From assembly GCA_021018995.1 (NCBI GenBank), contig CM037593.1, positions 17,946,088-18,010,087 of the forward strand: 64,000 nucleotides of DNA, read 5' to 3'. Of the stretch, positions 16,800 through 48,703 are shown in pieces; the first letter of the stretch is position 1; each line of letters opens with the position of its first letter. This DNA comes from Chloranthus sessilifolius. Taxonomy: Eukaryota; Streptophyta; Magnoliopsida; Chloranthales; Chloranthaceae. Position numbers and translations under genes: made by a program. The notes beneath the pieces were generated by a model. That model ran no database searches, was not told where the DNA came from, and worked only from the letters and a program-made list of their open reading frames with translations.

Positions 16800-18146
16800 T
16801 GGTCGATTTTAAGTTTAACCCTTGCAAGTGCACAAGATCTATTGTAACACGGTAAGAACAGGGGTGTCGAATCCACAGGAAAACATGAAATTGTCTAATC
16901 CTTTCAGAGACTTTAAAACACCCAAAGAAGTACCAAGGGAGAAATTCAATTTACCACACAAGTACCACACGATTCTCAATGCAATAAAAGAAAACTAATC
17001 AATCTAGGCCAGAATAAATTATGATAAAGAAGAAAAATAACAGTTTATGAATTGATCAAGGAGTTAGCTAACCATCGATTCGTAACTTTTCTACCATTCA
17101 ATCTCACAAATTTATTTTAAGTCAAAACACCATTATTTATTAGGAAAATAAATGAATCGCGAAGAACGCAACTATGGATCCGGCATACCCTATCTAAAAA
17201 CTATGACTCAGCCTATCATTACGGTATGAGTCATGTAAAAAGGATAACATATCTCAAGATCCTAAGTCACGACAATGATAAATCAATCATTCCACAGCCT
17301 AGATCGGCCTGCAGGAGCAGATCTAGATGGAGTGCTTCTTTTACGGTCATTGATAACCACGATCAATGACTGTAAACGAAGACTCGATAATATTCAACCA
17401 AGAACATACTTATAACCGAATGATTCAATGACAAAATCATGAAATTGTAGAAACAATAATAGAACAATTACTTATCTCCGGTTCGCTTCCTCCTTGAGCA
17501 AATGACTTTAGCCGCTCATCCTCGGTATACAAACCCGTTGTAGATCCGAAGACATTATTTTAATAATGCTCTTTTATTTATCACAAAATCTCCTTATAAT
17601 GCTTTTGTTCCTAGGTACAATCTATGCTCTTACAATTATAAAAGAGAATTAAAAAGAACCTAATATAATCTACTGAGAAGAAGAAGAACCAAGAAGAACC
17701 CTCTCAAAATAGATTCAAAAAAGGCCCCCCTACACTAATTCGTAGCTTCCTTTTTATAGGGTCGAGCAAACCCTATCCCTAATAGCCTCAATCGATTGAG
17801 AATAAAATCTCAATCGATTGACTTTGAATTCGAAATAAGAGAGGGCAAACTTGCCTTCTCCTGTCAATCGATTGACACTTATTCCTCAATCGATTGACAT
17901 CCAGGGATAGATTCTCCACTCTCTTGGTGGATGTTGAGTTGCTTCACGGGTTTCGATGCTTCTTTTGACCTTTTTGTCCATAGCCCTTGTGTAGTCTTTA
18001 ATTACATTCTTTTATGCTCTTTAATAATCCAACGGTCAGAAACACCTGTAATCATTAAAACCTCATAACAACCATCAGATGCTTTCATCAGTTAGCTAAA
18101 TATAGGAAATAGAGTGCGAAATATAGTCACATTTCGACACTGAGCA
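16800..18146 (-). repeat. Athila 3' LTR
   Basis: Matches 38986-40323 almost throughout. On the minus strand it begins TGCTCAGTGTCGAAATGTG next to the polypurine tract and ends AAATCGACCA. It carries two palindrome twins (17788/17810 and 17864/17886). Relative to the other LTR it has a single-copy tract near 17710-17740 (GATTCAAAAAAGGCCCCCC) that the other lacks. Confidence 0.9.
17788..17897. repeat. Palindrome twins in the 3' LTR
   Basis: TCAATCGATTGA occurs at 17788 and 17810, and again at 17864 and 17886. Both pairs have a start-to-start distance of exactly 22 bp. The equivalents in the 5' LTR are at 39959/39981 (first base pair changed to TTAATCGATTGA) and 40035/40057. Confidence 0.9.
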
Positions 18147-18165
18147 CACCCCCAAACCTAAACTT
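18147..18165 (-). other. Athila polypurine tract
   Basis: On the minus strand TTTAGGTTTGGGGGTG directly precedes the 3' LTR. It has the form and place of a plus-strand primer, and the second Athila-type element has AAGTTTGGGGGTG in the same place (63451-63463). Confidence 0.85.
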
Positions 18166-20597
18166 TGCTAGTCCTCGAGCAAAGAGAATGAAAAATATGT
18201 TAAAACAACTACAACTATCATCCTAAACAAAATTAAATTTCACTTTCACAGGGAGCACGATTGCATTTAGCCTATGCAACAAGCCTTTAAACCCCTAGGT
18301 GATCCCTAGTGGAGAAGTTTTGTCTCCTGAAGGTTTTCAGGGAAGGTACCTACAAACTTCAAAGCTTATGAATTTCCTAATTTTTAGTCATGCCCTTGCA
18401 TGGTTAATTATCCGTGAATTCTTATAAAATGCTACTGTCCATGCTTATTTTTGTAATGCTCAATCAATTCAAAATCAATTCAGTTCATTTTTTTTCCAAT
18501 GCTTACAATTCATGCCCATAGTTCTATGCACTTATCACTGCTAAAGTTCTGCTATCTGAGAATAAGTTTGAACTAGGAATCTTTAGATTCCACGTCTAGA
18601 CTCGATTCTCACCACAGGTATGTACTCTAAATGAAATCGCTCCTGATAAATAGTTTTATTTTTCACTCATATGTGAGATTGGAATTATAACACCAATTAG
18701 AAAAATTCTCACATGTTATAAGAAAGACAGTGTACCAAAGAATTTAACGAGAAATCTCACTGAACAGATATTTGTATTTTAAACATGCATATACCAAGCG
18801 CCATAGATATTGTATAATCATTCTCCACACGACATTTACCATTCATGATTGGATCAAAAAGGCCTTTTCTAAGGTTGTAATGGGGCTTGGGTGAAGGTTG
18901 AGAAAGGAAGGAAAAATTGGATTCAAATTTCTCTGAGAAATTGGTAAAAGAGACAGAATTGATTTTATGATATTTCTCGAATTCTTTAGAACCTTTTCTC
19001 TTCATTACACTTTTCTCCTTTTTATTTTTATTTTTATTTTTATTTTTAACACCACTTTCAAATATTTCTCTACCTTTTACACTAAACTGACTTTTCTTTT
19101 TCTCTCTCCCTTTTATGTTTTTTCGCTATATATTTCTTTCAGTACCTTTGCCACATCTCTCTATTTCCTTCCTTGGTCTCATCCCTAATTTCTCAGAGAT
19201 AAAAGGGTAAGGCTTTTTCAACTGGTGTGAAGTTTGGTTAATATAGCTTACAAGGAATAATTAAGGCAAACTCTTTCAGTCAAGGCTCAAAAAGGGGTAC
19301 AACAAGATAAATTCATATAAGGTGGGGCATTTTGGGCACGAACGAGCCAATAATGGCCTTAGATCATTTCTTTTCACGATGGTAATGATGCCTATTTGCC
19401 TTGAGTTTTTACACAATGATTTCTAGTGCAATGGTATAACACACATGAAATCAATAAATCAAAGATAGAGTATACGAGATTTCAACAAATTAAGCAAGAA
19501 ATTCAAAGATACTTCGAATTTATTTCAGCACTCATCAAGAACGAGGACAAAGTTCCAAAGCTCACTGGGTTTTAGTCTTTCTTTGAGATCTTCGAATTCC
19601 AAGTTATATACTTAATTCTCAGATTTGAAATTAAAGCAAAGTGATAGTACAAGATTTTTCAGACATATATCATGAACATCATTATTCAATCTTCAACTTT
19701 ATGAGCATTCATAAAACAATCATGGCATGATAACAAATTTTTTTTTAAGGAATTTTCGGTTATCAACAATTTAAAATTATGAATAAAATTCGAAATTCAT
19801 AAGTTTAGTGGTCATTAGTCGATCGATTGAGACAATGGTCTCAATCGATTGACTGATACAAATTTCCAATGGGCTAATGGGCATCAGTTGATCGATTGAG
19901 ACAATGGTCTCAATCAATTGACTGATATACTTTTAAGATCCGGAAAACAGCCCCCTTTTTTTGTTGTTTTTGTTTTATTTATTTATTTATTTTTTATCAC
20001 AAGTTAATCGAAAATACCCCCCCAAACCTGAACTGATCAATGTCCTCATTGGCTTTGATGGTTAGAAAGTATGGGAGACCCTCCCAAACCTGTTTACTGC
20101 AATCGAGGACCATGAAAGCAAACCAAGTGAAAGGTATTGTGATCAAAAGTGTAAAACACAAAGATATAACTAAACTAAACTTTATTTAAACTGGTGCAAA
20201 TTATTACACTGATTGAAAATTTAGAGAAAAATAACCTAGTCGAAAACAAATTTAATAATAACCTAAACTAAAATATGAAAATCAAATAACAATTAAAAGG
20301 ACTCCTAAAACTATACCCTAAAGCTAACAGCCCTAATCCCTTCAATCATCCATGATGGATCTCTCTTCCTTCGACTTCGGAAATGCGTAATTCCACATCT
20401 CCTCCAAGATGCCGCCCTCGCGTGGTGATGAAAAGGGCGCTTGTGGTGGAGAAGATGGTGGGGTAGGATTCAATTCCGCCCATAAGGAAGTCGGAATCAA
20501 GTGCAACGCCAGGGTGTTGACGACTTTAATGGAGTGTGTAAACTCGAGGGGGCTGCGGGATCTGATAGGAGGTCAAGATCAATAACTTCCCGCGTGG
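18166..20597 (-). other. Athila untranslated region before the 3' LTR, distal part
   Basis: No gene is supported. The first 190 bp next to the polypurine tract are shared with the second Athila-type element (see 63300-63450). A (TTTTA)n tract lies at about 19016-19050. Two palindrome twins lie at 19819/19841 and 19888/19910. The region is cut by the Tekay insertion after ACAAA (20598-20602) and continues at 29766. Confidence 0.65.
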
Positions 20598-20602
20598 ACA
20601 AA

Positions 20603-23034
20603 TGTGACGACCCGACTTTTCCAATCCCTCAGGTATAGGAAAGGCCGGTTCGCCAACCTATCGAATAAACGATAAGCCGGACAAACAGGGCACATATCAG
20701 AGTAAAGCGTAATAAATATCCATAGCTAAAATAAATGCGGAAACAATTAAAAGTAAAGAACCACCGATGATGGCCGACCATCATCGAAACATGGCTCATA
20801 ACAGAAATCAACGTCAAATATAAAACTATGATATCCAACTAAAATGGGCCCACAAAATCAAGTCTACTCTCACCACAAATAAGAAAATCAGTAAGTTCTA
20901 TACTGGGAAACACTCCTCAGGAGGAACCTCAAGCTCTTCCTCAGGCACGTAGTCAGGATCAGTCTCATAGCCCTGAATAGCCACGTCAGTACCTGAACCT
21001 GTGACGTATAGTCGGAGTGAGCTAACCAACAAAGCTCAGTAGAAGAAAGACATCTACGGCATTTTACTTTAACTAACATATTTTTAAAACAAATATCGGA
21101 ATATAGCTTGTCAAACATATAAGCAGATAATAAACTGAATTTAGGTGCGGAAATCCTATGTAAGATTTATTTCTAAATGTGTGAAAACAGTTTCAAGAAC
21201 AGATGCAGTGTTTCAGTGTCTTAGTTTCTCTAACTTCTATATGCAACGTTCAGTAATTCATGACTTAATCCTCAACTTAAAATACCTCCCGAGTAAACTA
21301 TATCTCGAGAGCAGGAATATAGCCGATGGGAACCCCTACCTACCATCGTCGTTCATGAACCCTTTTTCAGGATGCAACAAGCCCCTGCGTAATGAGGGAA
21401 ACTTGTGCCAGGAAGTTGTTCAGGAATTTTTAAGGAGTCGTTCAGGTCAATCATAAAACAAATGCAGATACTAATATAAATCAGATGCAAGTCTCTTATA
21501 CATAGTTCAGATTCTTGATTTCAGATTTTCAGAGCTTAAGCAGATTCAGATTTCAGGATTCAGGTAGATTTAGATTTTCAGTCATTCATATCAATTTCAG
21601 TTTACAGATGTGATTTCAATGGCATATGTAAGTTCAAAGATTTTAATTCAAAATATCCATGCGAATTAAAATAAAATACTGTAAAGATGAGATTCTCCTA
21701 CCAAAACTCGGAGTAATGCGAAGTCAAGCAAAGTTCTATTGATGGCCTCTCGCCCTCAATCTACATCACAATATACGTTCATGCATTAAAATTAACTCTA
21801 ATTACTAATAATATAGACCTATTTAAGTGTTTCCTCAAAAACAAGTCAAAACAGGCAAGTTGCGCCAATCCTAGAATTTGATGTAACATTCTCATATATT
21901 TTTGACCATCAAGACGATTGATCCATGAGTTGGTCAAAACATGAAAGTTGTAGATTTTTCTATTAGCTTTCCAACGCAAAAAGCATCGTCTCAATCAGAG
22001 TTTGGGATAAAAGGTTATGACTAAAATACTAAGGCAATGTCGGAGTTCGGTGATACCTCGCTCGAGCGATGATAATAGCTCGCTCGAGCAATTTGATGTA
22101 ACATTCTCATATATTTTTGACCATCAAGATGATTGGTCCATGAGTTGGTCAAAACATGAAAGTTGTGGATTTTTCTATTAGCTTTCTAACGCAAAAAGAA
22201 TCGCCTCAATCGGAGTTCGGGACAAAAAGTTATGACTAAAATACCAAGGCAATGTTGAAGTTCGGTGATACCTCGCTCGAGCGATGATAATAGCTCGCTC
22301 GAGCGAGCTACAGCGACGCGATTTCGCTGGTTTTCACCCGAATCGAAACCCATACATCCCAAAGTAAAACCCATGGCTAATCTAATGATTTTAATCAAAA
22401 GTTTAATTAAAACGTACCTTTAATCTGAGGATTCCTAGATTAGAAATGAGTCACGCGAATGGAGCTTCAGAACGAAACCGACGGGTTTCCTCAACGATTC
22501 GCGCCGCGATCGATCCCACGAGTTCACAGAGACAACTCCAACACGCCCTCAATGATCTCAACCTCTCCCAATAGCCAACTACGAATCCCAGGTTGATTCA
22601 AGTTCGTTATAAGGTTTAAGTGTTTTCAACAAAGAGGGTTCTAGAGAAGGAGGTTTTCTAAACCGATCTCCTACGATGATTGAAGAAGACAGAAGACGGA
22701 GTTTCACACGGTTGGGTAACTATCCTCTCTTAACAAAACCTAGTATAATACGGGAATGCAATTCCTTTTTATAATAGGATTGCTCACAAAGTAAAACACA
22801 CACACACATCTTATGTATTATACACTTCTAATTTTAAAACTCAAGTCCGGTGTTGAGCGGCTACACCGAGGTCGGTGCACAACTTTTGCACGAGGGTCCA
22901 AATGGGCTCTAAATTAAAATCTGTCCGTACAATCACATCTAGATAAAAATCCAAAACAAATGGTGACGTCGGTTGCCGAGCCAAATACACACACAGGGTC
23001 AGTCTAACTCGGGTTCAAAATACGGGTCTTTACA
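20603..23034 (-). repeat. Tekay 3' LTR, 2432 bp
   Basis: Matches 28638-29760 at both ends but has 1.3 kb in the middle (about 21640-22945) that the other LTR lacks. It holds a 215-bp tandem duplication (21876-22090 and 22091-22305), and each unit ends in a TCGCTCGAGCGA twin. The reading frames, for example 21145-21456 on the plus strand, are antisense frames within the LTR and not genes. Confidence 0.92.
22058..22306. repeat. TCGCTCGAGCGA palindrome twins
   Basis: TCGCTCGAGCGA at 22058 is followed at 22080 by TCGCTCGAGCAA. At 22273 and 22295 both members are perfect. Both pairs are 22 bp apart with the spacer TGATAATAGC, the same 12-10-12 layout as the TCAATCGATTGA twins in the surrounding Athila. 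Confidence 0.9.
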
Positions 23035-23050
23035 TTCTACCCTCCTTAGG
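23035..23050 (-). other. Tekay polypurine tract
   Basis: On the minus strand CCTAAGGAGGGTAGAA abuts the TGTAAAGACC start of the 3' LTR, as expected for the plus-strand primer of a Ty3/gypsy element. Confidence 0.85.
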
Positions 23051-23696
23051 AATTTTCGTCCTCGAAAATGTACGGATAGCTAAACCGAACTGCGGTAAGT
23101 CCTTATCCTAACACCAGTATAAAGCAAAATCGAAACACTCTAAAGTCAAAGAACTTTGATCGCGATGCGGTAGGCTTCACTAAGCACGCTTTCAAGGGTC
23201 GGGATCCGTAGTAACCTGGATGTACTGCGTGTGGCATCCCATACTGCCATAGAGGATTGCATCCGTACATGGATGCATACCTTTCCAAGTGTCACGTGCC
23301 TGGAAATATACTTCACCATGACACAAACCTAGCACACACACCTACCTCACCCTTTTGGTAATTATTTGAGCAGAAATTTCAGATGTCAGAATCGAACACT
23401 TATTCAAAAGCATGATCACATGCCTGGTAACATGTTCTAACCGATGACACGGGTTCCAACAGACATACGGTTCTAACCGAGAATGAATAAATATGACATT
23501 TAAGATTTTATTGTGTAATCGTTATAGATATATATGTAAAGCATCGATATTATGAACCAATTTAACATTGAAGACTTTGAAGAAATTCTCTCTTTTTTTT
23601 TTTTTTTTTTTTTTTAAAGAAATAAATTCAAGAATTTAAAGGTACGTATGGTTTTCTTACATAATTATAGTTTACAATATACCTTCACTCGAAAAG
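23051..23696 (-). other. Tekay untranslated region before the polypurine tract
   Basis: No gene. Positions 23166-23325 are the module shared with E1 and E1'. A run of T lies at about 23593-23615. The short minus-strand frame at 23103-23288 lies in this shared block and has no independent support. Confidence 0.6.
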
Positions 23697-24146
23697 TTAT
23701 GGAAATTGCTCGTGAATCTCCGCTTCACGCTCCCATGTGGCTTCCTCTGAAGAATGGTTCCGCCACTTCACGAGTACTAAGGGAATGCTCTTTGTCCGTA
23801 AGATTTGTTCTTTATGATCCAAGATTCGTATCGGTTCCTCAACCAAGGATAGGTCTTGTTGGAGCTCAATGGGCTGGTAGTCCAATACGTGAGTCGGGTC
23901 CTTAACATATCTTCGTAACATGGACACATGAAACACGTTGTGCATTTCCGATAGCTGCGGTGGCAAGGCTACTCGATAGGCAACCTCGCCGACTCGGCCC
24001 AATACCTCGAAAGGTCCAACATAGCGCGGACTCAGCTTCCCACGCTTCCCAAAACACATCACGCCTTTTGTAGGAGAAATTTTGACAAATATATTATCTC
24101 CCACCTTAAACTCAACATAGTTTCTTTTCAGATCAGCGTAGCTCTT
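23697..24146 (-). pseudogene. pol: Integrase C-terminus with chromodomain
   Basis: The 135-codon open part begins at 24104 and continues the integrase after a stop (TAG) at about 24147. It has the GKLSPRYVGPFEVLGRVG block of the gypsy integrase C-terminus, then MHNVFHVSMLRRY and, at about residues 88-135, a chromodomain with LVKWRNHSSEEATWE. The two aromatic positions W and W are kept. In active elements this domain binds modified histone tails and biases integration to heterochromatin. The stop separating it from the catalytic core means no full-length product is made from this copy. Confidence 0.85.
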
Positions 24147-25139
24147 CTAACGACTTTGAGCAATGCGTAGTCTCTCACGGATTAATCGAACTGTCTCGGT
24201 TGTATTCTCCACGATCTCGGGACCTAAAATGAGTTTCTCACCCACTTCTTCCCAATTAAGCGGAGACCTGCACCGTCGTCCATACAAAGCTTCGTAGGGT
24301 GCCATGCCGATGCTAGCCTGGTAACTGTTATTGTAGGCGAACTCGATCAGCGGTAAATGTTGGTCCCATGACCCCTGAAAATCCAACATGCAAGCACGTA
24401 ACATATCTTCTATAATCTGATTCACCCTCTCAGTCTGCCCATCGGTCTGAGGATGGAATGCTGTACTATAATCGAGCCTAGAGCCCATTCCTTCTTGAAA
24501 TCGTTGCCAAAACTGAGATGTGTACATCGGGTCTCTATCGGATACAATACTGACCGGTATATCATGCAGCCTAACTATCTCCTTGATGTATAATTCTGCG
24601 AGCTTGTTGGCGATATACGACGTATTATAAGGAAGGAAGTGTGCGGACTTAGTCAATCGATCCACAATGACCCAGATGGCATTGTATTTTCTTAATGTTC
24701 TTAGCAATCCCAAAATAAAGTCCATAGAAATGGCCTCCCATTTCCACTCAGGTATCGGTAGTGGTTGCAACAGTCCTGCCGGATTTCGATGATCCACCTT
24801 TACTTGCTGACACACAAGACATCTCGAGACATACACAGCGACATCTTTCTTTAAACCTCTCCACCAGAAGCTTTTCTTTAAGTCCTGATACATCTTGGTA
24901 CTGCCAGGGTGAATAGCGTACATAGACTTATGAGCCTCTTCCAAAATAGTGTCCCGAAGCTCAGTACTAGTTGGTACGCATACCCGGTTTCTAAACAACA
25001 AAGTGTCATCATCTTTGATAGAAAAATCTATTTTGCTTCCCCCAATCACATCCCGTCTGATAGCCATAAGTTCATCATCCGTCATCTGAAGTCTGCGAAT
25101 GTTCTCATAGAGGGTGGAACGAATCACCAGTGTAGCCAT
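24147..25139 (-). pseudogene. pol: Integrase catalytic region
   Basis: A 330-codon open frame. An HHCC zinc-binding region lies near residues 50-115 (HKSMYAIHPG, then CLVCQQVK). The catalytic core follows with D in MDFI, D in VSDRDPMYTS and E in GQTERVNQII, so the DDE triad is present, then the EFAYNNSYQASIGMAPYEALYGRR block typical of chromoviruses. It overlaps the RNase H frame in a different phase, a sign of a frameshift at about 25105-25139, and ends at a stop just before the chromodomain part. Confidence 0.88.
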
Positions 25140-25668
25140 TAACGCCTTTTGAACCTTTTACGTCAAATCTCATGCTACTTAGAGCCATATCTTCCAATAG
25201 ATGCCATCTTCGCACCCTTGCGGTGAGATGTGATAACTGAGCAGAGAACTTCCGACTTAACGCATCTGCCACTACGTTTGTTTTCCCGGGGTGGTACTGG
25301 ATGGTACAATCATAATCTTTCAAGAACTCCATCCATCGACGCTGTCTCATATTCAACTCCTTTTGTGAGAAGAGATACTTGAGGCTCTTATGATCGGTAA
25401 ATATATCGAAGGTCTCCCCATAAAGGTAATGCCTCCAGATCTTCAGAGCAAAAATCACTGCTGTCAACTCAAGATCATGCGTCGGGTAATTCTTCTCAAT
25501 GTCTTTTAGCTGTCTAGACCCATAAGCAATGACTCTCTCATTCTGGTTAAGCACACAACCTAAACCCCCATATGATGCATCATCAGATATCGCAAAGCCT
25601 CCCCGCTCGATGGTATAGCAGTAATCGCGAGTCAATCGTTTCTTGAGTTCCCCGAAAACTTTGCTCAC
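25105..25668 (-). pseudogene. pol: RNase H domain of the Tekay polyprotein
   Basis: A 187-codon frame with [13 protein letters not shown], the [21 protein letters not shown] block and [11 protein letters not shown], which carry the catalytic D, E and D of the reverse-transcriptase-type RNase H, then VVADALSRK. The stretch between it and the reverse transcriptase (25669-25887) is frameshifted and has stops, though fragments such as SFLG and KIESL can be read there. The last 40 residues are already out of the usual frame. Confidence 0.85.
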
Positions 25669-25887
25669 ACCGCTCGTCTAATCAAATTTAGTATTCTTCT
25701 TCGTAAGTTGTGTAAGAGGACGATATCTTGGAGAAGCCCTCCACAAACCTTACCTTCAGTATCACCCAAACCGAGGAAACTACGAACCTCATAACGGTCT
25801 TTGGTCATTCCCAATTCATCAACGACTCAATCTTTCTTTGGGTCAAGCTGTATGTCTAGGTCTCAGAGATAACATGGCCTAGGAAAC

Positions 25888-26880
25888 TTACCTGCTCAAG
25901 CCAAAACTCACACTAAGTTTTGCGTATAACTGATGGTCTCTAAGGGTTTGTAGAGCCACTCGCAGATGTTGCTCATGTTCTTCTCGCGTCTTTGAATAGA
26001 TGAGGATGTCATCTACAAAAACTACTACAGACTTGTCCAAATGTGACTTGAATATCCGGTTCATCAAGTCCATAAATGACGCGGGTGCGTTTGTCAACCC
26101 AAATGGCATGACCAAGAACTCGTAGTGCCCATATCGGGTTCTGAACGCTTTCTTCTGAATGTCTTCAGACTTAACTTTCAACTGATGGTAGCCTGACCTC
26201 AAGTCGAAGAACCTTGCTCCTTGTAACTGATCGAACAGATCATCAATTCTTGAAAGTGGATAACGGTTCTTAATTGTCAACTTATTTAGCTGGCGGTAAT
26301 CGATGCAAAGCCGCATTGAACCGTCTTTCTTCTTTACAAATAGAATCGGTGCTCCCCAGGGTGACACACTCGGTCTGATAAAGCCCTTATCTAGCAGTTC
26401 CTGAAGCTGCTCCTTCAACTCTTTCAATTCTGCAGGCGCCATTCGATACGGAGTTTTTGATACTGGTTCAGTACCCGACACTAACTCAATCGCAAACTCA
26501 ATCTCCCTGTCAGGTGGTAATCCAGGTAGATCTTCAGGAAAAACATCTGAATACTCGCAAGCAATCGTAATATCTACAATATTTTTCTTCTCCTCCTTAT
26601 GATCTTGCAAGTAGGCCAGATAACCACAACAACCGTTCCTCATCATACGGTCTGCTCGAATGGCAGAGATAAACGGTATCACACAAGATTTGACTCTGCA
26701 AAATCGAAAAGATTTTCTCTTCGGCGGGCGGAATGTTACAATCTTTCGAACACAATCCACGCTCGCATGGTAAGTAGATAACCAATCCATCCCTAGTATC
26801 ACGTCGAACCCTTCCATGCTCAAAATGATCAAATCAGCCCTTTGTTTGTGGTCTTGATCATCACAATCAGCGATTGACAC
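25888..26880 (-). pseudogene. pol: Protease C-terminus and reverse transcriptase
   Basis: A 330-codon frame. Residues about 20-45 hold [14 protein letters not shown], the C-terminal half of the retroviral-type aspartic protease. The protease N-terminus with its active-site D lies upstream (about 26890-27030) and is frameshifted. Residues about 130-330 are the reverse transcriptase: [34 protein letters not shown] and the catalytic [11 protein letters not shown] are all present. It breaks off after [10 protein letters not shown], just before the thumb. Two short frames nested here are shadows. Confidence 0.88.
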
Positions 26881-27180
26881 ATGATATCGGTGCTCACCGA
26901 GTTAGGTTGCTAGAATTGACGCCAAGATGAAATCAGGGGCCTTGGGAATGATTCCCAACTTTTGAGCGAACAATAGAGTAATAAAAGAATGTGTAGACCG
27001 GGTCTATCAACACTCAACCGGTTTTGCTTACATCGCTCCCCCGATGCATAAAAAGGGTACCTTAGTTTAGACAAGCGTTTCAATTAAAAGTTTCTAAGCA
27101 TGTGTGTTCATCCATAACTTATTAACAAAATTTATTAAATATCAAGCAATTATATATAACACATAAAATAAGAAGACATC

Positions 27181-28616: not shown

Positions 28617-28634
28617 CCATGTCTCTCGATACCA
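28617..28634 (-). other. Tekay primer binding site, initiator-Met type
   Basis: On the minus strand, four bases after the end of the 5' LTR (28638), TGGTATCGAGAGACATGG begins. The first seven bases match the TGGTATCAGAG site complementary to plant initiator tRNA-Met; the remainder has drifted. Confidence 0.75.
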
Positions 28635-28637
28635 ACC

Positions 28638-29760: not shown

Positions 29761-29765
29761 ACAAA

Positions 29766-30533
29766 TCTAGAGGTTCCCGTGGCAGTTCTCGACGTAGTCG
29801 TTTACGTGCCGGTTCCATTAACCTCTTGACGACAGATCAGGTGCAGTACTTGATAAGCGCCATAACTAAAGCTCGAAGAAGGAATAATATTTTGACTATT
29901 GGAAGGGACTACTCTAAGAGGAGAGTATAAATAGAGAAAACCTTCTAAGTTCGGACTTCTAGGACTCATAGAAACTTTTAACCTAAGGACTCTAAGAATG
30001 GTTCAAATCTTAATTTTCGGATTGGGAGATGTAACTTTCCGGAATTATACATCAGTCAATAGATTGACATTTTAGTGTCAATCGATTGACACAAGATACC
30101 AAGGGAACCTTCTGGTGCACGGCTCAAATTCAATTCCCAAAACAATTTCTTTTGAGAAACTTTCTGTTTCTGACTTAGTTAGACAGTTTTGCCCATGGAG
30201 AAGTCAATCGATTGAGAATTATTCCTCAATCGATTGACTAATTGGAGTTGTTTTTTTTTTGTTTTTTTTTTTTTTTGAAACAAATGAGAACTTAAAGTTC
30301 TCAAGCGATTGAGAGTTGTATCTCAATCGATTGACTGATACACTATATATCAATCTGAGAATGAATAGAAAAAGTAACACACTAAAAACAGTCCGATTTC
30401 ATTGATTTTCAAGATTTGATTACAACGATATGATCTAAATATCAACTAAAAGATAAACTAAACAAACTATGATTAATCAAAACTAAAAACACAAAACACT
30501 TAAAAACACCAATCACTAAACACTAACAAACAA
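29766..30533 (-). other. Athila untranslated region between third ORF and Tekay insertion
   Basis: Continues 20597 after the insertion. It holds palindrome twins at 30056/30078, 30204/30226 and 30301/30323 and T-runs at about 30250-30275. A short plus-strand frame (29637-29930) spans the insertion junction and is an artefact. Confidence 0.65.
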
Positions 30534-31701
30534 TCACTGATTATCATCATCATCATCATCAAATTCAGGGTCTCCCTCCTCATCCATCGCCGCTCGCGCT
30601 CCTGCGATGAATCCGCCGGCACGCCCAGGGAATGATTCCTGGGCCATCCGTATGAGAAGTGAAGTTTGAAAATGTGATCGTCGATCAAGACCTCCCATAG
30701 TGGTACTCAGCCCATCCATCCGTGCCTCGAGGTGAGCGACTGCTGTCTCAGCATTAAAATCAGGGACCTCTTCGGGAAGAGGTCGTCTAACACCGCTACG
30801 TTGGCATTGTGTGTGGTTTGGTCGGAGAGGAGGAGGGACCTCATCGACGTCAATAGGAGGTGGCGTCACACGCAGAATAGCCTTGATGCTCTTGTCCCAA
30901 ACGTTGGTACCGTAGTGATAAAATTGCATCACTCATCTCTTCATCATCGTAAATCGGGCACCCAAGTTGGTCCAAGAGATGCATCACGTAGTGCGGGAAG
31001 TGAAGAAGAATAGCCTCTCGCTTCTTCGGTGCAGTGGTGGTTGCGATGTCCTGGTGACACCGATACATCTCCTCGAGCATTAAATCGGGCACATCAAACC
31101 ACGTATTCGTGTGTGCCTCATATAGTTCCATCACCCTATTCTTTGTCCTCTCGCTCTTCGTGCCATGCAGTAACAGATTGTTTGACATAACGATGTCCCA
31201 AAACAGGATATCCATTGGTAGGACGGCTCTCCTAGTGGCTAAATCGGACCCGCGGCGTCCTCCACACATATCGTTGATCATGTCATTCTGACTACGATCA
31301 ATAGCCGGATTGATGGGGTGGTTCAATGGGCAAACCACGAAGAAGTTGAAAGCTCGTGCGAGATCGGCCGCATGCAGGTTATATCGCCAATTATCAATCT
31401 TGATGCTAATGAATGGCGAACCCATTGGCGAGAGTGGTGCAGGTACCCACTCCATTTTCTGGTAAAACAGGCGAATGATACGCAGAGAGACATCAATAGG
31501 TGGAGGGGCGAGCAACATTTCTAAGTGCAGAGCTTCGATGAATTTGATCGAACGGACGCATTTCGCGATGCGACGATATTTAGCGAGATCGAAGAAATTC
31601 TCCATTTGAAATTGGCGATCGACATACTCATCATTGGGAATGCGCATAGGATTGTTCGCGGGATGAGGTGGTCGGAACATCGGTGGGCCAGGCGCTGCCA
31701 T
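30534..31701 (-). pseudogene. Athila third ORF (env-like position)
   Basis: Read on the minus strand from ATG at 31701 (MAAPGPPMFRPPHP), the frame runs about 280 codons to 30850 and then continues in another frame from 30932 to 30534, so one frameshift lies at about 30850-30930. The C-terminus ends in an acidic tail (EFDDDDDDNQ). The piece VSLRIIRLFYQKM is matched by VSPRLVRLFYKNM in the second Athila-type element, showing they are the same ORF. It lies after integrase, where Athila elements have an extra ORF often called env-like. I see no signal peptide or clear membrane span, so the function is unknown. A longer frame from 31806 adds residues with no conserved match. Confidence 0.75.
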
Positions 31702-31802
31702 TTGATCGCGTACGATGAGAATAAAGATAAAGATTAAAGCTCGGATTGGAGGGGATTCGAAGTGAAGGGGACCACGGGTGTCCCCATTATATAATTTGAA
31801 TG

Positions 31803-32303
31803 TCAATCGATTAAGGATGGATCCTCAATCGATTGAAAACGGTTGGCCTCCACACGTTGCGAGAATTTGAAAAGACACCAGGCATGCTGATGCGACGTGG
31901 TACAATCCACTCATCCACGCTTAATGTCAATCAATTGACACTGTGATGTCAATTGATTGAGAATGACCTTTTCGCGAAAAGTCGCGCCGCTTAGGTGCCT
32001 TGGGAATAGATGGAGTAAATAGGCAATCATGTCAATCGATTGAGAGGTTGGTCTCAATCGATTGACATAAACATGCCCTGAAAGCTAGCTGCAATCGACA
32101 AGATGTGTCGATTGGTGCTCCAAATTCTGAAAATCTGTCATAAATTCGAGGTGATGTCAATCGATTGACATTATTATCTCAATCGATTGATAGAAGAAGG
32201 GGGAAGATGATGATGATTGAACATCAATCGATTGACAGGGTAAGTGTCAATCGATTGAGAAAAGAATGTCAATCGATTGACTGATTGTCAGTCAATCGAT
32301 TGA
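31803..32303. repeat. Palindrome twins between integrase and third ORF
   Basis: TCAATCGATTGA or near variants start at 31803/31825, 31927/31949, 32032/32054, 32157/32179 and, as a run of four, 32224, 32247, 32269 and 32292. Steps within pairs are 22 bp, and in the run 23, 22 and 23. No gene is in this 500-bp stretch. Confidence 0.9.
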
Positions 32304-32407: not shown

Positions 32408-33600
32408 TCAATATTTCGGGTCACTGAGGTCGATTGCCTCAATCCTCATCTGGGTCATTGGTTCAAACATTGATTTGAGTCGTTGCCCATTGTCTTTAAG
32501 AATTCGATTGTCTGTAAGGCTTCTAATTTCAATCACACCATGCACGATAGTGGAGACGACATGAAATGGCCCTTCCCACCGCGATTTCAATTTCTCCGGA
32601 TGAAGCTTAAGTATGGAGTTGAACAGCCAAACTTTTTGCCTAATGTAAAATTCTTTCCGCAAAATTGACTGATCGTGCAACTTTTTGTATCTTTCCTTAT
32701 ACATCTTCGAATTCTCATACGCATCGTAGCGAAGCTCTTCTAATTCATTCAGCTAAAGGCGTCGATTGGATCCTGCCTCTTTCATATCGAAATTAAATCG
32801 TTTTATAGCCCAGAATGCCTTATGCTCCAATTCCACTGGGAGGTGACATGTCTTCCCATAGACAATTCGAAACGGCGACATTCCAATCAGGGTCTTGAAT
32901 GCTATGCGATATGCCCAAAGAGCAACAGATAGGCGATTCGACCAATCTCTTCTATCCGGTCGTACCGTCTTCTCCAAAAGTTTTTTGATTTCCCGATTGG
33001 ACACTTCCACTTGACCACTAGTCTGTGGGTGATACAACGTTGCCACCTTATGGGTAACATCGTATTTCTTCATTAAAGTGGAAAAATGACTGTGGCAGAA
33101 GTGCGAATCGCCATCACTAATGATTGCTCGTGGAATCCCGAATCTGTTAAAGACATTTTCTTTCAAAAATTTGATCACGACCTTGTGGTCATTCGAGCGG
33201 GTTGCCACAGCTTCTATCCATTTGGAAACATATTCAACAGCTACTAGAATATATGAATACCCGAACGATGGGGAAAAGGACCCATGAAGTCGATCCCCCA
33301 TACATCGAAAATTTCCACAATCAGAATCGGGTTCAGTGGCATCATATTTCGTCGTGAAATATTTTCAAGCTGTTGACATCATTGGCATTCTTTACAGAAT
33401 TTGGCAGCATCCCGAAAGATGGAGGGCCAATAGAATCCGCTTTGAAGAATCTTGTGTGCAGTCTTTTATCCTCCGAAATGGCCTCCATAGGCCCCAGCAT
33501 GGCAGAAGTTAATGACACTCAATTGTTCTTCTTCAGGCACACATCTTCTAATGACTTGGTCAGAACAGAATTTAAATAATTATGGTTCATACCAAAAATA
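32408..33600 (-). pseudogene. pol: Athila integrase
   Basis: The HHCC region is readable at about 33360-33500 but contains stops. The main frame (32753-33301, 182 codons) carries [14 protein letters not shown] and [20 protein letters not shown], holding the second D and the E of the DDE triad; the first D lies at the frameshifted start near 33290. The C-terminal frame (32408-32704) has RKEFYIRQKVWLFNS and KLKSRWEGPF. There is no chromodomain, as expected for Athila. Stops at 32752 and upstream separate the parts. Confidence 0.85.
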
Positions 33601-33609
33601 GTATTTTAT

Positions 33610-34263
33610 TTAAGAGAAAAATAGATTTTTATCATTTTTACCCCATTGCGTAGGGATTCTTCCAGTTACCAGATAATTCACAATATTAGAGAACCAAGGA
33701 ACTTTTGTAGCGGGTGCACCTATTGCCATCAATTGTTCATCTGGGAAAGTATTACGGATAGTCTCAGATACCAATGATTCTTTAGGCAAAATTCTTGACA
33801 AATGATTAGTCACAACATTTTTGACCCCCTTTTTATCTTTGATCTCAAAATTGAACTCTTGGAGGAGTAAGATCCATCGGATCAACCTTGATTTGGTGTC
33901 CTTTTTCGCTAGCAGGTATTTCAATGCAGAGTGGTCTGAAAAGACCACTATTTTTTATCCAAGCAGATAGGAGCGGAATTTATCCAATGCATACACCATA
34001 GCTAGCAATTCCTTTTCGGTGGTGGTGTAATTCAGTTGGGCATCAATCAGCGTCTTACTAGCATAATAGATCACATGAGGCATTTTGTTTACCCTTTGTC
34101 CTAAGACTGCTCCAATAGTATAGTTAGACGCATCGCACATAAGTTCAAAAGGTAGAGAATAATCCGGTGGTTGGATTATTGGTGCATTTGATAGTAGCTC
34201 ACGCAATTTCAGGATTGCTTTCATGTAATCCTCATCAAAGTAAAAAAAAAACATCTTTTCCAA
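33610..34263 (-). pseudogene. pol: Athila RNase H
   Basis: Two adjacent frames. The first (33955-34263) has MCDASNYTIGAVLGQ and TTEKELLAMVYALDKFRSYL with the first D and the E of RNase H. The second (33610-33948) starts at MVFSDHSALKYLLAKKD with the next D and continues to NVVTNHLSRI. A stop (TTTTTTATCC region near 33950) divides them. In the family this part degrades RNA in the RNA-DNA hybrid during reverse transcription. Confidence 0.85.
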
Positions 34264-35208
34264 GCAAGGTGCACAATGGTTTAGCTACCTTGCTAAAATC
34301 TTTGATGAATCGTCGGTAAAATCCAGCATGACCTAAAAATGATCGGATTTGACGAATATTTCTTGGTGGAGGCAGATTAGCGATTAAGTCGACTTTTGCC
34401 TTGTCAACTTCAATTCCTTTTTTCGAAATGATATGCCCCAACACAATTCCTTGTCGGACAATGATATGGCTCTTCTCCCAGCTAAGAACAAGTTTGGATT
34501 CTACACAACGTTGCAACACTTGTGCAAGATGATTTAGACATGATTCAAACGTCTTCCAGAAAACTGAGAAATCATCCATGAATACTTCGATGAACTTGTC
34601 AATCATATCCGAAAATATGGCTAATATACATCGTTGAAAAGTAACCGGAGCATTACATAGGCCGAATGGCATCCTGCGATATGCAAAAGTACCATAAGGG
34701 CACGTGAATGTTGTTTTCTCTTGATCTGCAGGAAATACAGGCACTTGATTGTAGTCCGAATGTCCATCGAGAAACAGTAAAACTCCTGCCTAGCTAACTT
34801 CTCAAGAATTTGATCAATGAATGGAAGACGAAAATGATCTTTTCTGATAGCCGTGTTCAATTTTTGATAATCGATGCACACGAGCCACCCCGTAGTTTCA
34901 TGGTTGGGTACCAATTCTCCCTCGGTAGTCTCTTTCACAGTGATCCCAGACTTTTTCGAAACAATTTGAACTGGACTTACCCATTCACTATCAGAGATGG
35001 GATAGATGATTCCAGCATCGAGTAGTTTAATAATTTTCTTTAAAATGACTTCTTTCATATTCGGGTTAAGTCGCCTCTGTGGTTCTCTCGATGGTATACT
35101 ATCATCTTCCAGATGTATCTTGTGCATACAAACTAATGGATCAATCCCTTTCAGATCAGCTAAGGCCCATCCGATGGCATTTTTATGATTTTTGAGCACT
35201 TTTAACAA
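34235..35208 (-). pseudogene. pol: Athila reverse transcriptase
   Basis: The upstream frame (34621-35208) begins with NHKNAIGWALADLKGI and contains SEWVSPVQIVSKKSG and the fingers region. After a frameshift near 34740 the second frame (34235-34744) has CPYGTFAYRRMPFGLCNAP and the catalytic VFMDDFSVF, then KKGIEVDKAKVDLIANLPPP and the connection. The YXDD-type box reads MDD with F before it, as often in Athila. The frame overlaps the RNase H frame in another phase at 34235-34263. Confidence 0.87.
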
Positions 35209-35217
35209 TTCATTCTC

Positions 35218-36174
35218 TTATTTTTTAGATAATGTCGATGAGATAATTATCGGAAGCGTTTCCTCACGTCCCAGAAAAGCATACTTGAGTGATTCAGGCA
35301 GCTGCTTTAACTCGACGGTTGGTGGCTGCTCGATTGATGGCGTCAGCTCATCCTTCACCTCGACAGGCAATGGTTCCACTGTAATCTCAATTTTACATGA
35401 CGTATCACCATCAGTTGATGAAATCGTCCTCTTCTCTTCTGACTGTTTTTGTGCAGATCCTGGCTCCTCATAGATGGCTAACAAAGCAGTTTCGAATTCT
35501 TCGTTGGTAAGCATTGATGTTAAAGCTTCATCCACTACTTCGTCCACCTGATCAATGTTGAAACAATCAACCTCACCCTCATTAGAAAAATGGTTTATTG
35601 CATGAAAGATATTGAGTTTAACTTTCATGTTTCCAAAAGAGACATCCATGACTCATGTTCGACAATTGATGCAGGCATTTGCGGTCGCGTGAAATGGACG
35701 CCCAAGAATGATTGAGACTTGATTGATAGATTTAACTAGAGGTTCCATGTCCAACACAACAAAGTCCACTGGGAAAATAAATTTGTCTATTCCAACCAAA
35801 GCATCCTCGATAATACCCCTAGGTCTTCTTTCTGACCTATCAGCAAGTTGCAGTGTAACTGTCGTGGGTTTCAATTTGCTCAGTCCTAATTTCTCGTACA
35901 CTGAGTAGGAGATCAGATTGACACTTGCCCCCAAATCCAGTAACGCCTTTCCAATTGGTTGCCCACCAATGACACATGGAACAGTTGGGACTCTAGGGTC
36001 CTTAAGTTTTCGTGAGGCATTCGATTGCAGTATCGAACTAACTTGATTTGTCAGGAACACTTTCTTTGAAACATGAGTACGTATTTTTCTTTTTCGAGTG
36101 CATAGATCTTTGAAAAATTTTGCGTACTCAGGGACTTGCTTGATTGTTTCAAGTAATGAGAGATTTATCTTCAC
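35218..36174 (-). pseudogene. pol: Athila protease and linker
   Basis: The frame 35653-36174 (173 codons) contains ALLDLGASVNLISYSVYEKL, the active-site region of the aspartic protease, with D-L-G in place of D-S/T-G as is usual for Athila and Tat elements, then QVSIILGRPFHATANA. A stop at about 35650 is followed by an acidic linker frame (35218-35649) that ends with LPESLKYAFLG, a conserved stretch just ahead of reverse transcriptase in this lineage. Confidence 0.83.
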
Positions 36175-37822
36175 TTATTTGAATGTTTCGAAGATTTCTT
36201 CCATTTTTGACGCTCTCTTCCCCATTCTAGATGGAGGTGTTAGGCACTCAGAGAATGGTGCCTTTGGGGTGTAGCAACGAGGTTCATTCTCTGATTCTTC
36301 TTCCGGTACTGGTTGGACAATTTGAGGATCTTCTTTTTCTTTTTCTTTATCTAGTCCTTTGCTTTTTATTACTTCTTTTTCTTCTTCCTTGTGCGGTTCT
36401 ACTGGCATTTCCACCTGATTATCAATCGCTCTCCCACTTCTCAGCACTGTAACAACTTTCAACTATTGACTGTTTGATGGCCCTTCATCAGATGATGCTT
36501 GGCCTCGAGGATTGTTGATAGGTTGGCTAGGAAGCCTACCTTCCTCTTGTTGACTCAACTGATTCGTCAATTGGCTAAATTGGTCCATCATCATCTGCTG
36601 AAAAGCTTGTATATTTCGCATAATCTTTTCCTCCAAATCAGAATCTTTCGATGCGGTGGTCTGAGATTGATTAAAATTCTGATTTTTTCGATATTCAGAA
36701 TTTGGATGATAATAAGGAGAGTTATGTTGGAAATTAGAATTCTGTTGTGGACGAAAGTTCTGTTGTCCACTCATTACGTTGGATCTGTACTGCTGGTTCA
36801 CCTGTTCAGTTTGGTTTTATCCTCCCCATCCTAAGTTGGGGTGATTTTTTCATTCCGGATTGTAGGTGTTTGAGTACATGTTCCTACCCTACCGCTGATA
36901 CGATTGAGTCAGATTCACCTGCTCTTGAGGAGTAGGTTCATCAGGAAAGAATGACAAGGTAGTTGGACAATCGTTAGCTATGTGACCTGGGTGGTCACAG
37001 ATTGAACAAGCGGTGGGGTTGCTGGGACTTTTAGCTTGTTTAGTTGCAGCTAACAGCATGTTCATTTGCTTGGACAACATGTCAACCTTTGTTGAAAGAT
37101 CTGAGGTGTTGTTATTGAATCAAATAGTCCATCTCTGGTTAACACATATGATTTAGTTGCCACATCCAAATTAGTTTGCCCCAGAGTCGCATTTTGTATT
37201 GAGATTTGATACAGCTTTTCAGACAATGCCCACAATTCATTTGCCTCCTTCGTGGCACACGATCCTCCACAAGATGCATCAACCATGCATCTCTCTTCTG
37301 GAATTAGTCCATTGTAAAAATTTTGGACCTGTTGCCACCTTGGCAGTTGATGATTTGGATAACTCTTAATCAATTCCTTAAAGCGTTCTCAACATTCATG
37401 AAATGTTTCTGTAGGTTGTTGGGAAAAGAACTGGATCTTCTGACGCAACTCAATGGTTTTGGTCATGAGAAAATATTTTTTTAGAGTGCCTTATCTCTTA
37501 AAGAGAAAGGAAAGAGTCGTAGCTTAGCTATCTCGTCAGTGACATTATGCACTCGAAACATTTTAGACACTGCAATGAACTCATTCAAATGAACATGTGG
37601 ATTCTCGTTTGACAATCCATGATAAATCGGTAACATTTGAATCATTGCGGATATGAATTCATAATGGTTCCCTGGGATGGGGGCATGCATGATACTATCT
37701 TGATCCTTGTAAAAATCAGGATCATTATAATATTTCAATGTTCTTGGGCCCTCATCATGATTATTGTTTCTATTATTTCCATTATTATTGTTCTGATTAT
37801 TCCCATTCCTTTGATCTGCCAT
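36175..37822 (-). pseudogene. gag: Athila gag
   Basis: Starts at ATG 37822 with an asparagine-rich N-terminus (NNQNNNNGNNRNNNH). The gag core follows: NENPHVHLNEFIAVSKMF and LRLFPFSLRDKA at about residues 75-112. The frame then breaks; a second frame (37062-37373) has LPRWQQVQNFYNGL, and a third (36889-37080) carries an intact zinc knuckle CSICDHPGHIANDC. A glutamine/asparagine-rich part (36463-36801) and an acidic, lysine-rich part with LRSGRAID (36175-36462) complete it. At least three frameshifts or stops are present. Confidence 0.85.
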
Positions 37823-38962
37823 AGTCTCAGTATGATGATACTAATTCCTTTGGATTCTGCGATTCTCTCTACAAGATCGTTCGATCTCAAGATTAAACGG
37901 TTGCAGATGTGGGTGATGAGAATGAGTAAAGCTCATGCACCAACACTCACAAAAAGGGTTGATGATTTCACAACAAACCACAAGTATCAACTTCAATCGA
38001 TTGAAGTAATGCACACCACAAAATTACCCAACAAGGACTTTATCAATCAATCGATTGAAGCAGTGGTCTCAATCGATTGATAATCAAAAGTCAAACTGAG
38101 TCAGCACAAATTTTTCAGCTTAGAAGGCAAGTAGTAGCGGTTAGGTCAATCGATTGACAGATAAATGTCAATCGATTGAAACACTTCCACTTATTTTCAT
38201 AGTGACTAATATTTAAGCTTCAATCTATTGACAGAAATTTTCAATCGATTGATTTCTATGATGAATATTCGCCAGTATCAGAAGAATAGAGTTTTTTTTT
38301 TTTTTAGTTTCAAAAATGAAAATTAAATTCGAAAATTGAGATTTTAAAATTTAAATTTCAAAATTTGATAGTAGAAATTTAAAATCCAAAAGTTGAAAAT
38401 TAAAAGCAAGATTTAAATTTCAAAATTTAAAACCTAAAGTAATCCCACACAATCCTACAAAATCTTACCTAAAAGAGAAAAAGAAGGAAAAGAATAAAAG
38501 ATTCCTATAAATTCTAACACAAGAGTCCACAAAAGTCAATAACTAGAATTTAGAAAATTCTATAAAATCTTTCTAAAAGAGGAAGATAAGAAAACGGGTC
38601 TCCTACAAGATCTAAAATAAGAAATCCTAAAAATCTCAACTTCCTAAAAAAAAAACTCCACAAAATCTTATCCAATGATAACAAAATAAAAAAAATAAAT
38701 CAGATTTTACAATTTATAGATCAAAATTGTTAATTCCAAATTTTAAAAGTCAAAATTTAAACCTTAAAATTCAATATTCGAAATTAACTATTCGGATTTC
38801 ACACAAAACAGTCGATCGATTGATGCTTTCGGCTCAATCGATTGACAATTCAACACTCAATAGTCCAGAGCATAATCGATCGATTGAGGAACAAATCTCA
38901 ATCGATTGACTGTCAAATAAATGCACAAATCTCTTTCCGAATTAATCAAAATTTTGCTGATT
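37823..38962 (-). other. Athila 5' leader with palindromes
   Basis: About 1.1 kb between primer site and gag ATG without a coding frame. It contains a single TCAATCGATTGA at 37993, twins at 38047/38069, 38146/38168, 38220/38241 (one base shorter), 38812/38834 and 38876/38898, and an A-rich middle part (38290-38800). Confidence 0.75.
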
Positions 38963-38979
38963 CTCCGGCAACGGCGTCA
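38963..38979 (-). other. Athila primer binding site, tRNA-Asp type
   Basis: On the minus strand the sequence TGACGCCGTTGCCGGAG follows the 5' LTR after six bases. It matches the complement of the 3' end of plant tRNA-Asp (TGGCGCCGTTGCCGGGG) at 15 of 17 positions. Confidence 0.88.
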
Positions 38980-38985
38980 AAAACT

Positions 38986-40323
38986 TGGTCGATTTTAAGT
39001 TTAACCCTTGCAAGTGCACAAGATCTATTGTAACACGATAAGAACAGGGGTGTCGAACCCACAGGGAAATGTGAAATTTGTCTAATCCTTTCAGAGACTT
39101 TAAAACACCCAAAAGAAGTACCAAGGGAGAAATTCAATTTACCACACAAGTACCACACGATTCTCAATGCAATAAAAGAAAACTAATCAATCTAGGCCGG
39201 AACAAATTGTGATAAAGAAGAAAAATGACAGTTTATGAATTGATCAAGGAGTTAGCTAACCATTGATTCGTAACTTTCCTACCATTCAATCTCACAAATT
39301 TATTTTAAGTCAAAACACCATCATTTATTAGGAAAACAAATGAATCGCGAAAAACGCAACTATGGATCCGGCATACCCTATCGAAAAACTATGACTCAGC
39401 CTATCATTACGGTATGAGTCATGTAAAAAGGATAGCATATCTCAAGATCCTAAGTCACGACAATGATAAATCAATCATTCCGCAACCTAGATCGGCCTGC
39501 AAGAACAGATCTAGATGGAGTGCTTCTTTTACGATCGTTGATAACCACGATCAATGACTGTAAACGAAGACTCGATAATATTCAACCAAGCACACACTTA
39601 TAACCGAATAATTCAATGACAAAACCATGAAATTGTAGAAACAATAATAGAATAGTTACTTATCTCCGGTTCGCTTCCTCTTTGAGCAAATAACTTTAGC
39701 CGCTCATCCTCGGTATACAAACCCGTTATAGATCCGAAGACATCATTTTAACAATGCTCTTTTATTTATCACAAAATCTCCTTACAATGCTTTTATTCCT
39801 AGGTATAATCTATGCTCTCACAATTATAAAAGAGAATTAAGAAGAACCTAATACAATCTACTGAGAAGAAGAAGAACCAAGAAGAACCCTCTCAAAATAG
39901 CTACACTAATTCATAGCTTCCTTTTTATAGGGTCGAGCAAACCCTATCCCTAATAGCCTTAATCGATTGAGAATAAAATCTTAATCGATTGACTTTGAAT
40001 TTGAAATAAGAGAGGGCAAACTTGTCTTCTCCTGTCAATCGATTGACACTTATTCCTCAATCGATTGACATCCAAGGGTAGATTCTCCACTCTCTTGGTG
40101 GATGTTGAGTTGCTTCACAGATATCAATGCTTCTTTTGACCTTTTTGTCCATAACCCTTGTGTAGTCTTTAATTACTTTCTTTTATGCTCTTTAATGATT
40201 CAACGGTCAGAAACACCTATAATCATTAAAACCTCATAACAACCATCAGATGCTTTCATCAGACAGCTAAATATAGAAAATAGAGTGCGAAATATAGTCA
40301 CATTTCAGCACTGATTATGAACA
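38986..40323 (-). repeat. Athila 5' LTR
   Basis: Partner of 16800-18146. On the minus strand its start reads TGTTCATAATCAGTGCTG against TGCTCAGTGTCG in the 3' LTR, a six-base length difference right at the terminus. It ends AAATCGACCA before the primer site. The exact right border (about 40310-40323) is uncertain because there is no clean duplication. Confidence 0.85.
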
Positions 40324-48660: not shown

Positions 48661-48701
48661 AAAAAGATCAAATTAAAAGAAATGATGCATTCATATAATA
48701 T

Positions 48702-48703
<2 letters not shown>

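Follow-up and report, generated by a model that had tools for sequence, protein, structure and literature searches.

We report that the non-coding DNA of an Athila-type retrotransposon of Chloranthus sessilifolius carries twenty pairs of a 12-bp palindrome, TCAATCGATTGA, at a nearly invariant start-to-start step of 22 bp. The element lies in a 64,000-nucleotide stretch of the genome (GenBank assembly GCA_021018995.1, contig CM037593.1, positions 17,946,088 to 18,010,087 of the forward strand), which we refer to at its full length as the window. We propose that these pairs, here called twins, are DNA operators for a sequence-specific factor that is dimeric and probably encoded by the host, and we put the probability of this reading at roughly 0.55. 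On this proposal each 12-bp palindrome would bind one dimer as double-stranded DNA, and two dimers 22 bp apart, that is, about two helical turns, would face the same side of the helix and cooperate in binding.

The palindrome reads TCAAT-CG-ATTGA and is present in 31 exact copies in the window, 28 of them inside the Athila-type element; sites resembling it number 49 at one mismatch or fewer and 62 at two or fewer. Among the 22 distances of 13-40 bp that separate sites with at most one mismatch in the whole window, 19 are exactly 22 bp, 17 of these within the Athila and 2 within a solo-long-terminal-repeat-like (solo-LTR-like) insert at 47066-49298. By comparison, 100 first-order Markov sequences contained on average 0.38 sites at one mismatch or fewer, and none of them contained a 22-bp pair at two mismatches or fewer; a chance origin of the twins was rejected on this result. 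The 22-bp peak, for which an earlier note on this DNA had proposed a comparison with randomised sequence, thus stands far above Markov expectation. All twenty pairs listed in that note are present, with a step of 22 in 17 of them; the remaining three steps are 23 bp at 32224 and 32269 and 21 bp at 38220. The two pairs listed between 32224 and 32303 are in fact a single run of four palindromes (steps 23-22-23), and about 17 of the pairs are independent, because two LTR pairs are counted twice and the pairs at 19819 and 19888 have one common spacer. The twins (given without strand, steps in bp) and the one exact copy beyond the listed pairs are:

17788 to 17821: twin 1, U3 of the 3' LTR, step 22; 29 bp upstream of a TATA-like sequence at 17752-17758
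17864 to 17897: twin 2, U3 of the 3' LTR, step 22
19819 to 19852: twin 3, 3' region, step 22
19888 to 19921: twin 4, 3' region, step 22; spacer as in twin 3, a local duplicate
30056 to 30089: twin 5, downstream of the third open reading frame (ORF3), step 22
30204 to 30237: twin 6, downstream of ORF3, step 22
30301 to 30334: twin 7, downstream of ORF3, step 22
31803 to 31836: twin 8, pol-ORF3 linker, step 22; 9 bp upstream of a sense-strand TATATAA
31927 to 31960: twin 9, linker, step 22; the sole twin with complementary Watson-Crick changes in both arms
32032 to 32065: twin 10, linker, step 22
32157 to 32190: twin 11, linker, step 22
32224 to 32303: twins 12 and 13, linker; four exact palindromes in a run, steps 23-22-23
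37993 to 38004: lone exact palindrome, leader; no partner 21-23 bp away
38047 to 38080: twin 14, 5' leader, step 22
38146 to 38179: twin 15, 5' leader, step 22
38220 to 38252: twin 16, 5' leader, step 21
38812 to 38845: twin 17, 5' leader, step 22
38876 to 38909: twin 18, 5' leader, step 22
39959 to 39992: twin 19, U3 of the 5' LTR, step 22; 29 bp upstream of a TATA-like sequence at 39923-39929
40035 to 40068: twin 20, U3 of the 5' LTR, step 22

Comparison of twins with one another shows which parts of the unit are conserved. Among 14 of the 20 twins (the two 5' LTR twins, the one at 19888 and the three with steps other than 22 being omitted), left arms are 92% identical and right arms 99%, whereas spacers reach 39% and flanks 26%. 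Sequence and spacing are therefore held and the filler is not, which bears out two earlier claims, namely that a fixed step goes with a mostly free spacer and that the pattern reflects selection rather than simple tandem duplication; plain tandem duplication was rejected because spacers and flanks differ between twins. Nothing was seen that points to replication, the other property suggested for the structure. The spacer is mostly free, but its ends favour SA...TS (19 pairs listed, with the 5' LTR twins out and the middle pair 32247/32269 in; column table from 15). With this bias at the ends only and with biased flanking bases, the 34-bp unit is G-TCAATCGATTGA-SA-N6-TS-TCAATCGATTGA-C, which is roughly dyad-symmetric. 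The 40 arms contain 14 mismatches, close to the 10.8 that half of the LTR divergence predicts for drift since insertion alone. It follows that the inserted copy had near-perfect arms at almost every twin, its filler being randomised by then. In our reading, selection has acted on sequence and spacing. Imperfect arms are found on the left in 10/20 twins and on the right in 3/20 (Fisher P 0.04, with LTR copies counted twice). A recurrent left-arm variant, TCGATCGATTGA, at 19819, 38812 and 38876, may be ancestral.

The arm and spacer identities also bear on the view that the twins are a functionless by-product of mutation, that is, a 34-bp cassette that slippage, template switching or gene conversion spread through the non-coding parts and that selection removed from coding parts. 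The common spacer of the twins at 19819 and 19888 is of the kind that such copying would leave, as is the array in insert 47066-49298, part of which is a genuine tandem repeat with a unit of 22 bp and a 95% match. Near-random other spacers and flanks beside almost perfect arms are, however, not expected from copying alone, and we regard this explanation as very doubtful.

The Athila-type element is on the minus strand and lies between LTRs at 16799-18143 and 38985-40314; its parts, all read on the minus strand, are:

38985 to 40314, minus: 5' LTR, with ends placed to within a few bases
36175 to 37900, minus: gag, with an ATG near 37822, read from frames
32408 to 36174, minus: pol region, with protease, reverse transcriptase and integrase by Pfam, in several frames; no twin
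31787 to 31793, minus: TATATAA, between the linker cluster of twins and the ORF3 ATG, with an 85-bp gap to the ATG; candidate internal promoter
30853 to 31701, minus: ORF3, in env position, with a weak PF20167 match (20.3 bits against a cut-off of 45); frame interrupted afterwards
20603 to 29673, minus: nested Ty3/gypsy-type element with its own LTRs, 95% identical; interrupts the Athila
16799 to 18143, minus: 3' LTR, 94% BLAST identity to 38985-40314

All 40 Athila sites with at most one mismatch fall outside gag, pol and ORF3. At that threshold there are 0 sites in ORF3 (30853-31700), in pol (32756-36174) and in gag (36175-37900), 0 in the end of pol (32408-32755), and 0 in the ORF3 tail frame (30534-30852). 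The nested element at 20603-29673, which serves as an internal control, likewise has 0 sites. We conclude that, as had been claimed, the twins are restricted to non-coding DNA and avoid gag-pol.

Within the non-coding DNA, the twins are arranged with respect to TATA-like boxes in a way that suggests promoters. In each LTR, CTATAAAAAGG follows 29 bp downstream of the end of the nearest U3 twin, and the U3 twins would be promoter-proximal activating sites. In the linker, the cluster at 31803-32303 places seven twins (the run of four counted as two twins) upstream of ORF3, and this cluster together with TATATAA would form an internal promoter for ORF3. The twins in the leader and the 3' region would serve as additional enhancers or as antisense promoters. 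We infer binding, cooperativity, promoter function and factor identity from these arrangements, from the constancy of arms and step, and from the likenesses described below. Two further observations concern the same regions. A plus-strand TATATAT at 30344-30350, 9 bp past twin 7 (30301-30334), is a possible antisense promoter. Between linker twins, at 32092-32114, there is a split inverted repeat, CAATCGACA-CATCT-TGTCGATTG in the sense direction, which resembles twin half-sites moved apart.

Several results count against the proposal that the twins are operators. TATA-like sites lie no more than 40 bp downstream of a twin in 3 of 12 non-redundant cases on either strand (P = 0.16) and in 2 of 4 cases on the sense strand; the proximity is not significant, and the promoter reading therefore rests on arrangement and not on statistics. 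The leader and 3' twins are not beside any sense TATA-like box. Phasing between neighbouring twins was examined for 12 distances at periods of 10.4-22 and rejected (Rayleigh P 0.135-0.79). For linker and leader the ratio of observed to expected CpG is 1.09 and 1.04, respectively, compared with 0.79 in pol, 0.47 in gag and 0.58 in the twin-bearing segment 18144-20602; after removal of the palindromes' own CpGs the values for linker and leader are 0.76 and 0.65, near the 0.79 of pol. The palindromes themselves thus supply the excess, and CpG islands were rejected as separate evidence. The inner spacer bases have a weak, hairpin-like excess of complementarity (P 0.015 to 0.05). The half-site resembles the cores of HD-Zip, WRKY and BEL/KNOX sites only partly, so that we give the factor no name. 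Finally, all of these results come from one copy of the Athila family, no other having turned up in the collections searched.

Two palindromes at a fixed distance could also act as a hairpin, in RNA or as a cruciform: in the genomic RNA the arms would pair over at least 12 bp and enclose a short loop, with roles, for example, in RNA dimerisation or packaging or as small-RNA precursors. We consider this unlikely, although part of the evidence fits it. Folding covered 11 of the 20 twins, and 11/11 gave the expected stem-loop, with minimum free energies of -16.4 to -27.5 kcal/mol and z of -3.0 to -8.6; but any two copies of a palindrome fold, and stem stability is therefore no test. The dyad alignment comprised 16 rows, with the 5' LTR twins and the three whose step is not 22 out and the middle pair 32247/32269 in. 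Among 500 column shuffles, the observed covariation score was reached by 5, the number of paired cells by 6, and the 8 pairs with two-sided changes by 7. When whole halves were re-dealt, inner pairs 19-21 gave P 0.015-0.05, inner and outer pairs together P 0.017-0.11, and the arms alone P 0.06-0.07. The twin at 31927 has complementary changes in both arms, yet it is the only one of the 10 twins with imperfect arms that is fully Watson-Crick paired, a count that becomes 2 with G-U pairs. The outer flanks are without excess (P 0.14-0.43), and single-position tests give P 0.09-0.54. At 12-19 bp the stems are short for processing by a Dicer-like enzyme, and Dicer-substrate hairpins were rejected on this size criterion. 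Hairpins require neither a fixed 10-nt loop nor one arm sequence in every twin, and the U3 twins of the 5' LTR sit upstream of the presumed transcription start. Support of another kind comes from the literature, which is cited here and below from excerpts of the papers: strong predicted secondary structure in Sireviruses is tied to small RNAs found at the structured regions (PMC10760457, citing Bousios 2016). The same paper reports that methylation is raised at hairpins in several feature classes, LTR elements included (PMC10760457).

Every consensus arm is a palindrome by itself and is identical in all twins; self-palindromic arms, one arm sequence throughout and a constant loop together favour recognition of double-stranded DNA by a dimer over a hairpin. 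The array in insert 47066-49298 also bears on this. Five pairs were listed there, one of them poorly registered: two match better as direct copies than as complements while keeping the step, for example TCAATTGATTGA twice, another is perfect in either sense, and the remaining two tie. Such pairs lean against hairpins, and a factor that reads DNA tolerates them better.

The twins of the Athila have relatives in two other insertions of the window:

15899 to 16307, no strand: TCGATTAATCGA array, 9 exact, step near 21, in a second solo-LTR-like insert
47684 to 48087, no strand: TCAATNGATTGA-like array with 22-bp steps, in the solo-LTR-like insert 47066-49298

The insert at 47066-49298 has TG..CA ends and ATCTC on both sides, with an empty site in a related copy near 4800; it contains 9 TCAATCGATTGA sites at one mismatch or fewer, with two 22-bp steps, and a third step at two mismatches or fewer. 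The second insert (15287-16798 plus 40322-42220) has TA..CA ends, not TG, is flanked by GGGGG on both sides and hosts the Athila. The arrays of both inserts are at similar offsets, about 0.6-1.0 kb, and the inserts match one another in one 40-bp stretch. Insert 47066-49298 matches the Athila's non-coding DNA in 11 short stretches (1 in U3/leader, 8 in the linker, 2 in 29761-30533 and 0 in 18144-20602), which among the matches listed bear the palindrome and are at most 69 bp long; the first part of the second insert gave no match to the four Athila stretches tested. Since only short palindrome-bearing stretches match, the inserts and the Athila have little else in common, and transfer of a short motif is also possible. 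The pattern thus extends beyond the Athila. The earlier note held that the same peak throughout unrelated host DNA would speak against its claim, and this applies in part, the related arrays being in two other solo-LTR-like inserts. We read these arrays as evidence of a shared trans-acting factor and not as an artefact, with motif transfer between elements as a further possibility. A wider version of the proposal, which we advance tentatively and hold to be possible rather than probable, is that unrelated LTR retrotransposons of a single plant genome (the Athila and at least one other family) independently adopted the two-turn twin, and that one host dimer-of-dimers factor drives the LTR promoters of each and also an internal ORF3 promoter in the Athila. 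In a bolder form, the Athila's ORF3 itself would recognise the twins, as a mark by which the element escapes silencing.

The related arrays also bear on who encodes the reader. The twins might be bound by a DNA-binding protein that the element itself encodes, ORF3 or some other product, and mark the element for self-recognition or against silencing, by analogy with VANC on VANDAL transposons. A short motif repeated in non-coding DNA with coding DNA spared is also what is found for VANC21 targets, and VANC targets differ by family (PMC10398659). VANDALs differ from the present case in being DNA transposons with an element-encoded reader and tandem repeats, and the excerpt describes no twin palindrome (PMC10398659). 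A second Athila-type element in the window has an ORF3 weakly similar to that of the first (28% over 72 columns, E 0.006) and a different dyad motif, a finding that fits both this view and the operator proposal. Against an element-encoded reader, the 12-mer at the 22-bp step also occurs in the otherwise unlike insert 47066-49298, which points to a shared host factor; and for ORF3, Pfam gives no DNA-binding domain, a search of the protein collection at E 0.001 gives no homologue, and the predicted fold, with a predicted local distance difference test score of 36, is unusable. We judge the element's own protein an improbable reader. The second element is:

54125 to beyond 64000: second Athila-type element, with a gag-like piece, E 1e-11

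It has no TCAATCGATTGA site at one mismatch or fewer. Its LTRs carry, at 54333-54549 and 63726-63876, a repeated dyad motif of about AATCGTAATTTACGATT, with 7 of the 11 window matches at four mismatches or fewer; palindromic LTR motifs thus recur in the window and differ by element.

A host factor that reads twins on double-stranded DNA has partial counterparts in known systems. HD-Zip I/II sites have the form CAAT(N)ATTG, 9 bp with a 1-bp centre, and are bound by dimers. The Athila palindrome has the same inverted CAAT/ATTG half-sites but differs from the 9-bp site in its 2-bp CG centre, CAAT-CG-ATTG, present as 31 copies of CAATCGATTG. The WRKY (TTGAC) and BEL/KNOX (TGACA) cores occur in part of the extended sites.

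The twin pattern is a close parallel to the repeated motifs of Sireviruses (Bousios et al. 2010, PMC2829016). These are palindromes in 8-32 near-identical copies per element, and their clusters, which precede the TATA box in the LTR and the env gene in the linker, define CpG islands; an internal env promoter has been proposed for Sireviruses and not conclusively identified (PMC2829016). Palindromic motifs are likewise stated to define a cis-regulatory region of Sirevirus LTRs (PMC10760457, citing Grandbastien 2015). The Athila matches this description in copy number, with 28 exact copies against at least 8 near-identical palindromes, and in clustering, with U3 twins 29 bp from a TATA-like box and seven twins before ORF3. 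The repeated motif of Tnd-1, ACAATCGATTGT, has the same 10-bp core, CAATCGATTG, as the Athila palindrome; Tnd-1 is the exception among the 13 motifs of Table 3, of which 12 have a CGG-CCG core (PMC2829016), whereas the Athila core is AATCGATT. The Athila differs further in being a Ty3/gypsy-type rather than a Ty1/copia host, in having copies also in the 5' leader and 3' region, and in its strict 22-bp twin step, which the excerpt does not describe for Sirevirus motifs (PMC2829016). The maize element Grande has an accessory gene, antisense to gag-pol, with its own promoter (PMC7264820), which provides a precedent for internal promoters. Among the matches listed for literature containing TCAATCGATTGA or CAATCGATTG, PMC2829016 was by title the sole plant-retrotransposon paper, and it likewise topped the literature on AATCGATT with 'retrotransposon'. 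Literature that consisted largely of titles and abstract openings yielded no published description of 22-bp twins in Athila, and the strict two-turn twin in a Ty3/gypsy element is, as far as we know, new. The results bear on how plant ORFs in env position are expressed and on which host factors switch on Athila elements. An operator cluster, a TATA-like box and an ORF in a row, together with a defined 34-bp site, make the proposal sharply testable, and the 22-bp step offers a sharp fingerprint for searches of plant genomes and transcription-factor-binding data.

The assignment of the element itself is as follows. Its LTR pair differs by 4.5% substitutions across 1328 aligned columns, and ATGAA is found on both sides (16794-16798 and 40317-40321). 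The sense-strand order is LTR, primer site, leader, gag, pol, linker, ORF3, 3' region, polypurine tract (PPT) and 3' LTR. Integrase lies downstream of reverse transcriptase, which makes the element Ty3/gypsy and not Ty1/copia. The LTRs and the order protease, reverse transcriptase, RNase H, integrase are as in Athila, with RNase H-like frames recognised at 33610-34284 by eye only. A tRNA-Asp-type primer site beside the 5' LTR is a feature of the Athila lineage, and GTTTTTGACGCCGTTGCCGGAGAATC after the 5' LTR resembles one, with about two mismatches to tRNA-Asp, and may represent such a site. The element also has an extra ORF after pol, which counts as env by position only, and an extra PPT: identical PPT-like tracts (sense AGGTTTGGGGG) are found at 18149, beside the 3' LTR, and at 20019, about 1.9 kb upstream. 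An extra PPT is stated to be present in the linker of Athila4 and Calypso (PMC2829016). The Athila name is a putative one, taken from the earlier note and from this layout. The Pfam searches covered 10 of the 14 frames that reach 150 aa, together with 8 shorter or other frames. No Rfam family was found in 15200-49400, and the viral_contigs collection contained no relative of the reverse transcriptase piece and no twin, either as the exact unit or as two palindromes with 0-30 bp between them.

A search of 257 billion bases of prokaryote genomes found 23 stretches in which 0-30 bp separate two exact palindromes, with a 22-bp step, as deduced from the listed stretch lengths, in 2 (L016 and L019). 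A step of 27 bp, with two TCAATCGATTGA spanning 39 bp, was found in 9/23 stretches (L006, L007, L009, L013, L014, L018, L020, L022 and L023), in Methylococcaceae and relatives (Methylomonas, Methylovulum), where the pairs are perhaps a conserved hairpin of their own.

Elsewhere in the window, the repeat region 1-3540 has CpG palindromes of its own, TATCGGCCGATA (14 of 15 window matches at two mismatches or fewer) and CGATACGTATCG (9 of 12). The insertions are nested: the Athila lies inside the solo-LTR-like insert of about 3.4 kb with GGGGG flanks, and that insert lies inside an older repeat, with an empty site near 12090. This gives three nested layers, or four counting the element at 20603-29673.

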